NCBI RefSeq assembly: GCF_011492945.1
Contig: NZ_CP045119.1
Span: 1,674,001 to 1,738,000 of the forward strand
DNA from: Rubrobacter tropicus
GTDB lineage: Bacteria; Actinomycetota; Rubrobacteria; Rubrobacterales; Rubrobacteraceae
Reading direction: 5' to 3'
Length of the DNA: 64,000 bases
The position numbers were made by a program, and so were the translations under genes. Below the pieces are notes generated by a model. The model was not told the DNA's origin and did no database searches. It was given only the letters and a program-made list of their open reading frames with translations. Of the stretch, positions 12,300 to 21,233 are shown piece after piece. The number at the start of each line of letters is the position of its first letter. Positions within the stretch are counted from its first letter, which is position 1.

Positions 12300-14775
<2,476 letters not shown>

Positions 14776-14783
14776 GAGGTCAG

Positions 14784-15986
14784 GTGAGCGAGAACCCACT
14801 CGTCATAAAGTTCGGCGGCACCTCCGTCGGCACCGGCGCGGCGATAGGCCGCGCCGCCAGGATCGCGGCCGAGGCCGCCCGCGAACGGCCCGTCGTAGTC
14901 GTCGTCTCCGCCATGAGCGGGGTGACCAACCTGCTGCTCGGCCACGCGGCCGTGGGGGCGACCGCGGACGGCTCGGCGGCGGAGCATCTGCGCGCGTCGC
15001 TCGCCGAGAGGCACCTGCGCGCGATGGGCGAGGCCGTCGCCCCCGAACGGCAGCCCGAGGTCGAAGGGCGGGTGCTCCGGTTGCTCGACGAGCTGGTCGA
15101 GACGGCGGGACGTCCGGCGGAGAGCGTGAAGGCCAGGAGGGCCGGGATCGCGGTCTTCGGCGAACGCCTGTCGGCCGAGATCTTCGCCGGCGCCGTCGCG
15201 GGGGCGGGCGTCCCGGGCGGGGTCGTCGGGGCCGACCCGATAGCCACCGACCGGCGATTCGACGAGGCCGAGGTCGATGTCGCGGAGACGGAGAGGCGAT
15301 GTTCGCGGTACGTAGCTCCCGTGCTCGAAGACGGGGCCGTGGCGGTCGTGCCGGGGTTCGTCGGACGCGCGCCCGACGGTTCTCCCACGACGCTTGGGAG
15401 GGGAGGGTCGGACCTTTCGGCGACCGTGCTCGGCCGGGCGCTCGGGTCCTCGGAGGTCTGGATCATGTCCGACGTCAACGGCGTGCTCGACGCGGACCCG
15501 CGGCTCGTTCCCGACGCCACCCTGATGCCCAGGCTCTCGTACCACGAGGCCCACACCTTCGCCGGTCTCGGGGCCAAGATCCTGCACCACAAGACCATGG
15601 AACCGGCCGCCGAGGCTCGCCTGGACGTCCTCGTCCGAAACACCTTCGCCCCCGAGACGCCCGGAACGCGGATCTCAGCGGACTTCGCCGACGGCGACGG
15701 CGTGCGCTGCGTGGCCCTGCGCCGCAAGGTCCCGATGGAGATACCGTGCGCCAACGGACGTCGCAGCGAGACGGCGATGGTGGTCTGCATAGGGTCGCCC
15801 TCGGAGGCCGACCTCAAGCTTGGCCTGCGTCTATTGCGGAAGGCGAAGATACGGTTCCTGCACGCCGGGTTCGCCTCCGCCGGCCTCGTCTTCGTCGTCA
15901 ACGGAGAACAGGGTGAGGACGCCCTCAGGCTCCTGCACGGCTCTCTCGTCACGGCCGACTCCCCAGGGGTCGAGGAGGTAGCTTGA
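14784..15986 (+). CDS. aspartate kinase
   Basis: Catalyses phosphorylation of L-aspartate, the first step toward homoserine, lysine, threonine and methionine. About 400 residues, cytoplasmic. The amino acid kinase domain starts IKFGGTSVG, has TTLGRGGSDLSATVLG and DVNGVLDADPRLV, and a C-terminal part (from about residue 315) looks like an ACT-type regulatory region, reduced compared with the usual pair of ACT domains. GTG at 14784 is chosen because GAGAGG lies five bases upstream; GTG at 14772, overlapping the metY stop, is the alternative. Fourth gene of the SAM-regulated operon if metX is first and metY second counted with its frameshift; the homoserine dehydrogenase start overlaps its stop. 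Confidence 0.9.
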   Translation: MSENPLVIKFGGTSVGTGAAIGRAARIAAEAARERPVVVVVSAMSGVTNLLLGHAAVGATADGSAAEHLRASLAERHLRAMGEAVAPERQPEVEGRVLRLLDELVETAGRPAESVKARRAGIAVFGERLSAEIFAGAVAGAGVPGGVVGADPIATDRRFDEAEVDVAETERRCSRYVAPVLEDGAVAVVPGFVGRAPDGSPTTLGRGGSDLSATVLGRALGSSEVWIMSDVNGVLDADPRLVPDATLMPRLSYHEAHTFAGLGAKILHHKTMEPAAEARLDVLVRNTFAPETPGTRISADFADGDGVRCVALRRKVPMEIPCANGRRSETAMVVCIGSPSEADLKLGLRLLRKAKIRFLHAGFASAGLVFVVNGEQGEDALRLLHGSLVTADSPGVEEVA

Positions 15987-17056
15987 GGCGGCTTGAGATC
16001 GTCCAGATAGGCCTCGGCCACGTCGGGCGCGCGGTCGCCCAGATCGTCCTGGAAGAGCGCAAGCGCTGGCTCGAACGCCGCGGCGTCGAGGTCCGCTACC
16101 GCGCCGTCTCGGATACCTCGGGCGCGCTCTCCGGCGAAGACCTGCTTCCGCAGGCCGTTCGTCTCAAGGAGGAGGGCGGCAGGCTCTCGGAGCTCGGCAC
16201 GGAGCCGCTGGAGGACGTGCTGCGCTCGGAGCCCGCGCCGGGGTTCACGAGGGTCGTCGTGGACGTGGCGGTGCACGGTGGGACGTTCGACCTCGACCTG
16301 CTCGGGATCGAGAACGGCTCCTACCTCGTGCTCTCCAACAAGGGGCCGCTCTCGGGGAGCACGGCGCAGTACGAGCAGCTCGTCAGCAAGGTACCAGACA
16401 GGCTCTGGCACGAGGCCACCGTGGGGGCCGGGATGCCGGTCATCTCGACCATGGGCGGCCTCATCGAGACCGGCGACGAGATCCTGGAGATCCAGGCGAG
16501 CCCCAGCGGCACTTTGGGCTTCGTCATGAGCGCCGTCGAGGCCGGAAGGTCGTTCTCCGAAGCGGTCCGGGAAGCCGTAGACTTGCACTACGCCGAGCCG
16601 GATCCCAGGGACGATCTCTCCGGGCTGGACGTGGCCAGGAAGGCGATAATACTGGCCCGCATGATGGGGCGCGGGATCGAACCGGAGGAGATCCCTTACG
16701 AGTCCCTCGTCCCCAAAGGCCTCGAAGACGTCCCCCTGGACGAGTTCATGGCCCGCCTCCCCGACCACGACGAGGCCTTCGCCGCCCGCATGGCGGCCGT
16801 GGAGCAGCACCACATGCTCCGCTACCTGACGCGAATCCCGAAGGAGGGCCCCGTCACGGTCGGCCTGGCGGACACGCCGGTCGAGAGCCCGTTCGGCCCG
16901 ATCAGCGGCCCCGAGAACGTCTTCGACTTCCGCACGCGCCGCTACTCGGATGTTACCCTCACCGTGCGCGGCCCGGGCGCGGGCCCCGAACGTACCGCGA
17001 GCGGCGTTGTCTGGGACCTGCTGGACATCGCCCACAGGGCGCTGCAAGACGACTAA
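15983..17056 (+). CDS. hom: homoserine dehydrogenase
   Basis: Reduces aspartate semialdehyde to homoserine with NAD(P)H. The 357-residue protein begins with a Rossmann motif (IGLGHVGRAV), has NKGPLSG where the family keeps NK, GAGMPVISTMGGLI in the substrate region, and the catalytic lysine in LSGLDVARKAIIL. There is no ACT domain at the C-terminus, so threonine feedback by that route is not evident. The start is TTG at 15983, overlapping the aspartate kinase stop as TTGA, which implies coupling. asd follows after 21 bases. Confidence 0.92.
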   Translation: MRRLEIVQIGLGHVGRAVAQIVLEERKRWLERRGVEVRYRAVSDTSGALSGEDLLPQAVRLKEEGGRLSELGTEPLEDVLRSEPAPGFTRVVVDVAVHGGTFDLDLLGIENGSYLVLSNKGPLSGSTAQYEQLVSKVPDRLWHEATVGAGMPVISTMGGLIETGDEILEIQASPSGTLGFVMSAVEAGRSFSEAVREAVDLHYAEPDPRDDLSGLDVARKAIILARMMGRGIEPEEIPYESLVPKGLEDVPLDEFMARLPDHDEAFAARMAAVEQHHMLRYLTRIPKEGPVTVGLADTPVESPFGPISGPENVFDFRTRRYSDVTLTVRGPGAGPERTASGVVWDLLDIAHRALQDD

Positions 17057-17077
17057 GAGATTAAAGGAGACACTGAG

Positions 17078-18043
17078 ATGCGCGAAGGATACACGGTGGC
17101 CGTGGTTGGGGCGGGCCTTGTGGGCGACAGGATCGTCGCCGAGCTCAGACGCCGGGACTTCCCGCTGAAAGAGCTGCGCGTCCTGGCGCGCACCGCCCGC
17201 CGCGCCACGCTGGCCGGCGAGGAGTTCGAGGTGGGGGTGGCCGAGCCCGAGGCGTTCGATGGCGTGGACATCGCCTTCTTCGCCGGAACGGAGGGCGAGA
17301 AGGGCGCCGCCGTCCAGCTCGCCGGGGAGGCCATAAGCCGGGGAGCCGTCGTCATAGACAACGGCAGCGACTTCAGGATGGACCCGGAAGTGCCGCTCGT
17401 CGTGCCCGAGGTAAACGCGGGCGCGGCTAAGGATCACAACGGGCTCATCGCCAACGGTAACTGTTCGACGATACAGATGGTCGTAACCCTGGCGCCGCTC
17501 GCGCGCGAGTTCGGCATCGAGAAGGTGATCGTCTCCACCTACCAGGCTGTCTCGGGCTCGGGCCGCGGCGGGGTGGAGGCCCTGGAGGACGGTCGCGAGG
17601 GCGTGTATCCCAAACCCATAGACCGCAACGCCATCCCGCTCATCGGGGGCGTCGGAGACGACGGCTACACCTCGGAGGAGACCAAGATGCGCCTTGAGAC
17701 GCGCAAGATCATGGGCCTCCCCGACCTCGAAGTCTTCGCCACCGCCGTCCGCATCCCCGTCCACACGGGCCACTCGGAGAGCGTCTACGTCGAGCTGGGC
17801 CGCGAGGCGACGCTCGACGAGGTCGTCGAGGCGCTTCGTTCGGCGCCGGGCGTAACCTTCTCGGGTGACGCCGACGACTTCCCGACGCCGCTCGAAGCGG
17901 CGGGCGACCCGAACACCTTCGTGGGCCGCGTGCGGGTGGAGGGCAACGTGGCGCAGTACTGGTGCGTCTCGGACAACCTGCTCAAGGGTGCCGCCACCAA
18001 CGCCGTCCAGATCGCCGAAGAGCTGGTCGGCGTCCGCGTCTGA
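17078..18043 (+). CDS. asd: aspartate-semialdehyde dehydrogenase
   Basis: Reduces aspartyl phosphate to the semialdehyde shared by methionine, threonine and lysine synthesis. The 321-residue enzyme has an N-terminal NADP motif (VVGAGLVGDRIV), catalytic Cys129 in NGNCSTIQM and the active-site histidine near 229 to 232 in PVHTGHSE. It is shorter than the E. coli form and of the Gram-positive type. ATG at 17078 has AAAGGAGA upstream. It closes the operon headed by metX, so all five enzymes from aspartate to homocysteine except sulfide supply come from one transcript. A hairpin follows immediately. Confidence 0.94.
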   Translation: MREGYTVAVVGAGLVGDRIVAELRRRDFPLKELRVLARTARRATLAGEEFEVGVAEPEAFDGVDIAFFAGTEGEKGAAVQLAGEAISRGAVVIDNGSDFRMDPEVPLVVPEVNAGAAKDHNGLIANGNCSTIQMVVTLAPLAREFGIEKVIVSTYQAVSGSGRGGVEALEDGREGVYPKPIDRNAIPLIGGVGDDGYTSEETKMRLETRKIMGLPDLEVFATAVRIPVHTGHSESVYVELGREATLDEVVEALRSAPGVTFSGDADDFPTPLEAAGDPNTFVGRVRVEGNVAQYWCVSDNLLKGAATNAVQIAEELVGVRV

Positions 18044-18754: not shown

Positions 18755-19429
18755 TCAAGCTGTGGTTCGGATGGTCATGGTGAGGACGCCCGCGACGATC
18801 AAGGCCCCTGCCCAGGCGAGGTCCGCGTTGAACCAGGTGCGTTTGAGGATCATCAACCCGAGCTTTTCGTAGACCACCAGCGCGACGGCCGCCATAACCG
18901 CGAACATCGCCAGCGTATGCACCGCGACGGCCGCGATGTCGGCGAGCGCCGCCGGGTTGGTCAGGAAGAGGTGTACGCCGTGGCCCGGGTGTTCGTGCGC
19001 CGGGTGCCCCATCCCCCGCACCGTGCCGGAGAACCTCAGCAGCACGGGGACGAGCATGAAGCCCGCCCCGTGCGCGGTCGCCATGATGAACGACCAGAGG
19101 GTCAGATCCCGGAAGCCGACCCGCATCCCCACCCAGCGCGGGTGTTTGCGCCGGATCAGCTTGTAGAGACCAAAGAAGATGAGCGTTACCGCCCCGATGT
19201 ACCCGAGTGTGTCCAGGGGGATCACGACCTGCGCGACCAAAACCGCCGCCACCACGAGGGTGACGGCGGCGGCGTGTCCGAGGGCGATGGGCCAGAAGGC
19301 CTTGAGGACCGCCTCCCGGCGCCCTTCTTGCAGGCCCAGGCTTACCGCGAAGAGCCAGCCCATCGCGGGGTTCAGGCCGTGGTAGGCGCCCAGCAGGACC
19401 AGGACGAGCCAGGGCCACGCGGCGCTCAT
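18755..19429 (-). CDS. membrane protein coupled to methanethiol oxidase, possible metal permease
   Basis: The 224-residue protein has six to seven hydrophobic segments. Its first segment reads LVLVLLGAYHGLNPAMGWLFAVSLGLQEG, with a His-Asn-Pro core inside the membrane, and loops carry HGAGFMLV and HPAHEHPGHGVH, rich in histidine. This recalls transition-metal permeases of the NicO/HupE kind, though the usual HALDADHI motif is absent. Its ATG overlaps the stop of the SBP56 gene as ATGA (19426-19429), so the two are translated together. Supply or export of copper or another metal for the SBP56 protein is an inference. Confidence 0.65.
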   Translation of the reverse strand: MSAAWPWLVLVLLGAYHGLNPAMGWLFAVSLGLQEGRREAVLKAFWPIALGHAAAVTLVVAAVLVAQVVIPLDTLGYIGAVTLIFFGLYKLIRRKHPRWVGMRVGFRDLTLWSFIMATAHGAGFMLVPVLLRFSGTVRGMGHPAHEHPGHGVHLFLTNPAALADIAAVAVHTLAMFAVMAAVALVVYEKLGLMILKRTWFNADLAWAGALIVAGVLTMTIRTTA

Positions 19430-20820
19430 GACGGGTAGCAGAACGAGTCCGAGGACGAGTCGCCGCCCTGCAGCCGGATCTGGTGCGGCCTCTCGTCCCC
19501 GAAGTCCGTGAAGAAGTCCGCATCGAGGGTGAAGCCGCCGCCGTTGTCCGCGTCCACGTCGGCCCTGGCGACCCAGCCCCTGATGCCGTCGGGGTAGAAC
19601 TGCTCGTCCCAGCTTGAGTACAGCGAGTTGCTGAAATAGACCCTGCGCCCGTCGCGGCTGACCTCCACCATCTGCGGCGCGCCGTTGAGGGGCCGTCCCG
19701 TCTTCGGGTGCTCCGTCCTGCGCGCGATGCCTCCGAGGTGCAGGGACCCCGTGTGCCTGGGATCGAACGGGTCGGAGACGTCGTACTGGCGCATCTCGCC
19801 GGTCCCCCAGCAAGAGATGTACAGGAAACGGTCGTCGAGGGAGAGGTTGATGTCGGAGACGAGTGGCGGCACGGCGCCGAAGCCCTTGAGCAACGGGGGC
19901 AGGAGGTCCGGTTCGGCGGGCTCTGCCGGGATGTCTATGACCTTCGTGATGTCCCACTTGTCGTTCTCGCGGTGCCACAGCCAGATCGAGGCCGAGAGGT
20001 CCTTGGTCGAGACGACGACGCCGACGAAGCCGTACGCCTTCGTGGGATCGTGGGCCGGGCGGAGCTCAAGCACCATCTGATGCTCCTCGCCCAGATCCAA
20101 CGCCTGCAGGTGCTTGCGGCGGCGCAGGTCCCACACGTGTATGCGGTGCCCGTAGCCGTTCGACAGGAGAACCTCCGGGTCGAGGCCGGCCTCGACCATG
20201 TTGGGTGTTCCCCACTCGCTGGTGATCATAGTATCGTGTCCCAGGTGCCACCAGAAGTCATAAGAGAACTGCTGGGGTCCGCGATCCACCTCCCAGCGCC
20301 CCAGGGGCTCGAAGGTGTCGTGGTCCATGACGAAGACGCCGCCCGGTCCGTTCCCGTCCGGGGTGCCGAGGGCGTTCATGTAGATCCCATCGGGACCGCA
20401 GTGGGTGGTGTGAGGGCGGCTGTAGCCCGTCCGCTCGTGCAGCTCTTCTGGCTCGATCACCTTGACGATGTGGGGCTTGGCGGGGTCCGGCTTGGTGTCG
20501 ATGACGTGGATGCGTGAAGAACGCAGGCCCGGAACGATGAGGTACCGGCGCTCCAGGTGCGGGTGTGGCGCGTAGGGGCAAAGCGACGCGCTGCAGGCGT
20601 TCCAGCCAAAGTGGTGCAACTCGTCGCCCATGACCGGCATCTCCACCCGGCCAACGACTTCCGTGTAGGTCGAGGAGTCTGGATCGACGTCCATCACCGC
20701 GAGGGCGTCGGGACGCCCGTTCGGGTTGAGGACCGCCACGTAAGCGAGCTTCTCTTTCGGAGCCTGCATCGCCATCCGCGGCGATGGGTAGTAGGTCGGG
20801 TCCGGCCTCAGAATAGTCAC
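19426..20820 (-). CDS. selenium-binding protein 56 family, methanethiol oxidase
   Basis: Proteins of this family oxidise methanethiol to formaldehyde, sulfide and H2O2, with copper reported in bacterial members. This one has 464 residues and a beta-propeller with the family's repeated blocks: LHHFGWNACSASLCPY, YSRPHTTHCGPDGIYMNALG, FWWHLGHDTMITSEWGTPNM, and CWGTGEMRQYDVSDP near the end. His-rich and Cys sites of the metal pocket are present. The GTG at 20820 is chosen because AAAGGAG ends six bases upstream; ATG at 20826 abuts that site. The downstream membrane protein is coupled to it. It may remove methanethiol made from methionine, a possible link to the met operon nearby. Confidence 0.88.
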   Translation of the reverse strand: MTILRPDPTYYPSPRMAMQAPKEKLAYVAVLNPNGRPDALAVMDVDPDSSTYTEVVGRVEMPVMGDELHHFGWNACSASLCPYAPHPHLERRYLIVPGLRSSRIHVIDTKPDPAKPHIVKVIEPEELHERTGYSRPHTTHCGPDGIYMNALGTPDGNGPGGVFVMDHDTFEPLGRWEVDRGPQQFSYDFWWHLGHDTMITSEWGTPNMVEAGLDPEVLLSNGYGHRIHVWDLRRRKHLQALDLGEEHQMVLELRPAHDPTKAYGFVGVVVSTKDLSASIWLWHRENDKWDITKVIDIPAEPAEPDLLPPLLKGFGAVPPLVSDINLSLDDRFLYISCWGTGEMRQYDVSDPFDPRHTGSLHLGGIARRTEHPKTGRPLNGAPQMVEVSRDGRRVYFSNSLYSSWDEQFYPDGIRGWVARADVDADNGGGFTLDADFFTDFGDERPHQIRLQGGDSSSDSFCYPS

Positions 20821-20826
20821 GAGCAT

Positions 20827-21233
20827 CTCCTTTCGGTCGACATGATCACGTGTTCCTGCCTGGTTGGTGGGGTCCTCGAGGCGTCGGGTAACGGGACGCG
20901 GAGAGTACTTACGGTAAGGCGTGCGTCGCGTTGTCGCCCGCACCATGGTCCGGCGTCCGAAGCGCAGGCGGGCAACCGCGGGAAAAGCCGGCCGAACCCC
21001 AGCGCCCGGCGCCGCGACATCGTGCGACCGGCAGGCTTCTCGCGGGACCGGTGCAGAGGCAATGGGTCTGACCTCGCCTCTGCACCGGTCCTTTGGTCGA
21101 TATGGGGGACCATCTTTCCCTAGTCCTTTTGGTCGCTACGTTGCAGGTAGCCTCGGCCCGAACGGTCGGGAAAGCCGGTCAAAGCTCCTCCGGTGTCGGG
21201 GGCATGGACTACCAGTCCAGTGCGGGTCTCTGA
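20827..21233. other. 406-bp gap with a 16-bp inverted repeat and no gene
   Basis: No reading frame here has coding character or a recognisable product. The notable element is the inverted repeat at 21045-21091, listed separately. Near the SBP56 start, CTTAC-G-GTAAG (about 20908-20918) and TGATCA/CACGTG (about 20844) are small palindromes. A short stem (TGGACT with AGTCCA) near 21205 lies close to the end of the methyltransferase gene. I assign no RNA gene. Confidence 0.5.
21045..21091. repeat. 16-bp perfect inverted repeat
   Basis: GGACCGGTGCAGAGGC (21045-21060) and GCCTCTGCACCGGTCC (21076-21091) are perfect complements around a 15-base loop, followed on the plus strand by CTTTGG. It lies between two minus-strand genes. 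A terminator for the methyltransferase transcript is possible but not convincing without a T tract on that strand. Confidence 0.7.

Follow-up and report, generated by a model that had tools for sequence, protein, structure and literature searches.

An SBP56 gene of the selenium-binding-protein family in Rubrobacter tropicus is directly followed by a gene for a six-helix membrane protein, and this pair is found in at least eight bacterial phyla. It is not a local arrangement, and its recurrence is far beyond chance. All paired SBP56 sequences examined retain the residues of a SELENBP1-type copper pocket, and the membrane protein contains five invariant histidines. These properties are consistent with a conserved two-gene operon in which a cytosolic SBP56 enzyme is served by a membrane protein that handles a metal, copper being the likeliest candidate, an explanation for which the case stands about evenly balanced.

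The gene pair and its distribution

The pair was examined in a window of 64,000 nucleotides, the whole stretch of DNA that was analysed. Reading of the minus strand gave the same gene coordinates and the same ATGA overlap as the original prediction (Table 1). The GTG at 20820 is the likely start of the SBP56 gene because of the AAAGGAG site before it; an alternative ATG at 20826 abuts this site. The R. tropicus genome (4.58 Mb, two contigs) contains a single copy of each gene. In another genome, G005, a match of 33% identity covering 46 residues was discarded as spurious.

Table 1. Features of the gene pair, with positions in the window.
Feature	Position	Strand	Description	Basis
SBP56 (selenium-binding-protein family) gene	19426..20820	-	GTG at 20820 to TGA at 19426-19428; 464 aa, without signal peptide, not MtoX-type	
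Six-TM membrane protein gene	18755..19429	-	ATG 19429-19427, stop 18755-18757; 224 aa, above the cut-off for no family	
ATGA	19426..19429	-	membrane gene start overlapping SBP56 gene stop	sequence reading
AAAGGAG, ribosome-binding-like site	20827..20833	-	six bases 5' of GTG 20820	sequence reading
SBP56 H69-H70 (HH)	20611..20616	-	human SELENBP1 H73/H74	residue conservation
SBP56 H137-x-x-H140 (HXXH)	20401..20412	-	human H137/H140	residue conservation
SBP56 H446	19483..19485	-	likely counterpart of Hyphomicrobium His412	matched by position, without direct alignment
Membrane protein H17	19379..19381	-	motif HGLNPAMGW, TM1 break	58/58
Membrane protein H52	19274..19276	-	TM2	58/58
Membrane protein H96	19142..19144	-	positively charged TM3-TM4 loop, predicted cytoplasmic	58/58
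Membrane protein H120	19070..19072	-	motif HGAG, TM4 break	58/58
Membrane protein H171	18917..18919	-	TM5	58/58
TM4-TM5 loop, residues 133-160	18950..19033	-	variable, His-rich, predicted extracytoplasmic	composition

A methionine/aspartate-pathway cluster (MetX, O-acetylhomoserine sulfhydrylase, aspartokinase, homoserine dehydrogenase and Asd) lies at 12300-18043 of the window, convergent with the pair. A link between the pair and these methionine-synthesis genes was rejected, as it was not conserved and tblastn gave no match in three relatives or in 80 loci. The O-acetylhomoserine sulfhydrylase frame is broken at about 13500-13710 of the window, where the first part is in a different frame from the rest, reflecting either a sequencing error or a real frameshift.

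A search of three whole-genome samples (954 genomes) with the membrane-family alignment revealed 33 membrane-gene matches, 29 of them directly downstream of an SBP56 gene; three of the 33 came from genomes known beforehand to carry the pair (R. tropicus, G322 and G312). In the sample from the R. tropicus phylum (296 genomes) all 11 matches, distributed over 10 genomes, were on the same strand as SBP56 and directly downstream of it, and in one genome (G019) both genes of the pair had decayed side by side. Every one of the ten matches from the class of Azospirillum (G322; 289 genomes) adjoined SBP56, as did eight of the 12 from the class of Marinobacterium (G312; 369 genomes). The other four comprise two at contig ends that are not judgeable (G824 and G700) and two exceptions, one a C-terminal fragment of the membrane protein without SBP56 (G789) and the other a divergent family member separated by about 3 kb from an SBP56 stretch on the opposite strand (G973). 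The divergent member (L227, 3728-4381) has glutamine at the position of H17, and no counterpart of H171 was seen in it by eye.

A scan of genome contigs gave 578 relatives of the membrane protein. Among the best 80 of these 578 loci the SBP56 gene was just upstream in 79, and the single exception begins at a contig end. The pair was also present in 53 of 58 plasmid records, in which the membrane protein is annotated as 'hypothetical protein'. Of the five plasmid exceptions, two are Ti plasmids of Agrobacterium, where the nearest upstream annotation is an ISL3 transposase gene, and three are Variovorax plasmids on which a relative of the membrane protein, without SBP56, lies beside a DUF899 gene. 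On these Variovorax paradoxus plasmids (L199-L201) the divergent relative follows a small beta-propeller gene and the DUF899 gene, the product of which presumably has a thioredoxin-like fold; the frame is interrupted in L201. No phage copy was confirmed. By record titles and tree labels the phyla were Actinomycetota, Chloroflexota, Thermomicrobiota, Verrucomicrobiota, Acidobacteriota, Armatimonadota, Gemmatimonadota and Pseudomonadota, and a Deinococcota plasmid contributes an additional phylum. The two genes had originally been coupled as a prediction, and by all three counts they do co-occur in other genomes. One Chloroflexota contig (JAUJPG010000039.1; L025 and L077) contains the pair twice, with about 10 kb between the copies, and G670 (L223) has, within a few kb of a clade-A pair, another SBP56-like stretch of only 28% identity that is possibly MtoX-like.

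The overlap between the genes had been taken to indicate fixed co-production, which proved overstated: an overlap of exactly -4 bases was measured in 36 of 79 loci, spacing in the other loci ranged from -35 to +228, and a separation of up to 267 between match ends was seen on plasmids. Co-transcription of the pair is strongly favoured, with an overlap that is not fixed. No recurrent third operon gene was found among the 83 upstream and 89 downstream ORFs that were aligned (of 89 and 103, respectively) from 47 of the 80 loci.

The SBP56 protein and its copper pocket

The SBP56 protein matched Pfam PF05694 over its full length (residues 5-461) with 664.1 bits, compared to a gathering cut-off of 34, and closely resembles the Sulfolobus tokodaii protein of known structure (PDB 2ECE; phmmer 669 bits). 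The match to the MtoX equivalog model NF052453 was 112.6 bits, below the cut-off of 650, and in a quick tree the protein was placed outside the MtoX group. The earlier label 'methanethiol oxidase' was therefore not upheld, leaving methanethiol as a candidate substrate only.

The quick tree, which covers 79 of 104 SBP56 sequences, placed 57 paired sequences in one group with four unpaired sequences nested within it, apart from 13 sequences of a 'type B' and five of MtoX type. The topology suggests an ancient pairing in a single SBP56 clade, with a few later losses. In the R. tropicus phylum sample 28 genomes were above the SBP56 cut-off and 10 of these contained the membrane gene, while in the Azospirillum-class sample the membrane gene was present in 10 of 20 such genomes; SBP56 does not need the membrane partner. 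In Alphaproteobacteria (L130, L131 and L132) ferredoxin-like, CoA-binding-like and rhodanese-like ORFs, labelled by eye, were seen close to type B SBP56 genes that are not paired.

In human SELENBP1 the copper pocket is described, in the parts of PMC10362175 consulted, as H73/H74, H137, H140, D189 and E252, residues needed for activity or copper content. Counterparts in SBP56 were assigned by motif and position, with no alignment of the human sequence, and H69/H70, H137/H140, D188 and E252, together with H446, were each present in all 82 paired sequences. By this assignment the SELENBP1-type pocket of HH, HXXH, D and E appears to be kept in every paired SBP56. The HH motif was also found in all type B (13/13), MtoX (5/5) and unpaired (4/4) sequences and H137 in all five MtoX sequences, while H140 is replaced by tyrosine in MtoX (5/5). 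In MtoX the 40-residue stretch preceding the match is hydrophobic (median 2.2), which is not the case in paired SBP56 (-0.24); by hydropathy there is no hydrophobic leader or signal peptide in R. tropicus SBP56, nor by median in the paired group. The best label for the protein is a putative cytosolic copper-type thiol oxidase.

The membrane protein and its histidines

No family in Pfam or NCBIfam matched the membrane protein above its cut-off. The AlphaFold2 model (pLDDT 87.3, pTM 0.79) showed six membrane helices, two of which are interrupted: TM1 after residue 18 and TM4 at residues 120-123. Conservation was measured in an alignment of 58 sequences, consisting of R. tropicus, two relatives and 55 of the 80 loci, from which mostly near-copies were omitted along with two members that were truncated or at a contig end. 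H17, H52, H96, H120 and H171 are invariant, in agreement with the membrane histidines originally predicted, as are N20, P21, M23, G24, W25, Q34, W112, M116 and others.

The loop between TM4 and TM5 is enriched in histidine across the 58 relatives (10.4% compared to 3.0% elsewhere) and slightly in methionine (5.3% compared to 3.9%). The mean number of lysines and arginines was 2.8, 3.9 and 2.8 in loops 1-2, 3-4 and 5-6 compared to 0.1 to 0.5 elsewhere, which by the positive-inside rule would place the TM4-TM5 loop outside the cytoplasm. A histidine-rich loop had been among the features from which a possible role of the protein in metal loading or export was predicted. It is present in R. tropicus but is not conserved, as the loop contains at least three histidines in 25 of the 58 relatives and none in eight, and its predicted extracytoplasmic position would prevent direct transfer of metal from the loop to an enzyme in the cytosol.

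Weak matches were obtained to RhtB (best 3.3e-6), YtaF, YjbE and GDT1, four families of the LysE superfamily, although the best matches of the R. tropicus protein to LysE-superfamily families reached 17 bits against cut-offs of 184-209. Profile comparison with LysE using hhalign gave E values of 0.0003-0.0014 at a probability of only 17-40%, compared to 0.17 for the EamA control, and aligned the NP of HGLNP with the PG of LysE. A Foldseek search with the model gave no match at E <= 0.001 and no LysE-superfamily structure among the matches listed, and the best VIA Z, 7.2, was not above the helical background. An internal 3+3 repeat was not detected by profile comparison, as the N-half against C-half score of 14.1 was reached by six of 60 block-shuffled controls. 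The weak family matches and the stronger profile match to LysE than to EamA point to a membrane protein that is probably LysE-superfamily-like. According to the parts of PMC4608589 consulted, this superfamily is one of export-catalysing transporters, in which amino-acid exporters, TerC proteins and DsbD electron carriers are counted.

Possible roles of the pair and comparison with known systems

Free copper in the bacterial cytoplasm is kept very low. To our knowledge, little is understood of how copper enzymes are loaded in this compartment or of what the widespread SBP56/SELENBP1 family does physiologically. In the proposed mechanism SBP56 would be a cytosolic copper-type thiol oxidase that shares its fold family and its copper pocket with human SELENBP1, and its partner a six-helix, LysE-superfamily-like membrane protein handling metal for it. 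An ion would be collected by the outer TM4-TM5 loop, which often contains histidine, and passed inwards through the membrane by the four histidines in TM1, TM2, TM4 and TM5. The positively charged cytoplasmic loop carrying H96 would then deliver it near SBP56, possibly by contact between the two proteins. A dedicated metal supplier is suggested because the apparent client is cytosolic with a copper pocket, the intramembrane histidines are invariant, the outer loop contains histidine and TerC proteins offer an analogy.

The absence of a known maturation gene also counts for metal supply: SCO1/SenC had no match in 14 of 32 pair-bearing genomes, namely R. tropicus and 13 of the 31 others. Against it, no membrane gene was found near the 13 type B and four clade members of SBP56, some members of the membrane family have no His-rich loop, and the Variovorax relatives occur without SBP56. 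In the parts of PMC10362175 consulted, human SELENBP1 made in E. coli was active after copper was added in vitro, so loading there needs no partner, which counts against a strict need. The more specific proposal, that the membrane family is dedicated to one client and acts as a copper importer or inserter for a cytosolic SELENBP1-family copper oxidase in many bacterial phyla, is tentative and somewhat unlikely to be correct as it stands. If true, it would represent a maturation route different from SCO1/MauG.

A sulfur cargo in place of a metal, in the form of a thiol, sulfide or sulfane sulfur that SBP56 uses or produces, is unlikely for the membrane protein. The superfamily includes amino-acid exporters, the strongest family matches were to homoserine/threonine efflux proteins and one relative adjoins a DUF899 gene, all of which would suit a sulfur cargo; however, the five invariant histidines and the enrichment of histidine in the loop fit a metal better, and membranes are readily permeable to methanethiol, H2S, formaldehyde and H2O2. 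Export of metal, with the two proteins co-produced as a stress or detoxification pair that lowers cytosolic metal, would agree with the description of the superfamily as exporters, and direction is not readable from sequence. This appears improbable, as resistance genes and metal regulators did not recur nearby (among the families listed, the top ones reached three of 83 upstream and three of 89 downstream ORFs). It is very doubtful that, instead of being a transporter, the protein anchors SBP56 to the membrane or serves it as a transmembrane partner for redox chemistry or haem binding, since, although DsbD belongs to the same superfamily and intramembrane histidines could ligate haem, the invariant columns contain no cysteine and an O2-using oxidase needs no electron partner.

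Metal supply by the membrane protein remains the preferred reading, and a genetically linked partner with invariant histidines would give a direct handle on both copper loading and the role of SBP56. The pairing itself provides a hint of function for a widespread protein annotated only as 'hypothetical protein'. It appears to be new, as no report of SBP56 with this membrane partner was met in the parts of the openly licensed PMC literature searched. The bacterial SBP56 study describes SCO1/MauG partners in the sections consulted (PMC5739008), and the words 'operon' and 'neighbor' do not occur in the main text of an evolutionary SBP study (PMC10277263).

The original prediction that known clusters differ from this one agrees with the published mtoX-SCO1-mauG arrangement (PMC5739008, as far as consulted) and with the lack of any SCO1/SenC match in the R. 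tropicus genome. In the MTO operon of Hyphomicrobium sp. VS, SCO1/SenC and MauG are proposed in the same sections to act in maturation of the periplasmic enzyme. The pair resembles this operon in that a candidate maturation gene comes after the gene for an SBP56-family enzyme, and the HH, H137 and H446 positions are common to MtoX-type sequences. Unlike MtoX, R. tropicus SBP56 is far below the model cut-off, has no hydrophobic leader and has H140 where MtoX-type sequences have tyrosine, and the place of SCO1/MauG is taken by a membrane protein. With human SELENBP1, a cytosolic Cu-dependent thiol oxidase according to the parts of PMC10362175 consulted, it shares the HH, HXXH, D and E of the copper pocket and the absence of a leader, while differing in being bacterial and paired with a membrane protein. 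The membrane protein is like the LysE superfamily (RhtB, MntP, TerC, GDT1, NicO and DsbD) in its six modelled helices and its weak matches to four member families, and unlike it in exceeding no curated cut-off and in the HG of the TM1 motif, which was found in none of the LysE sequences listed. The TerC proteins MeeF and MeeY of Bacillus subtilis metalate enzymes, as described in the parts of PMC10246235 consulted. They differ in that the metal is manganese, the enzymes are exported and membrane enzymes and the clients are several, and in those parts pairing with one client gene is not described. As LysE-superfamily membrane proteins that metalate enzymes, MeeF and MeeY provide an analogue of how the membrane protein of the pair may work.
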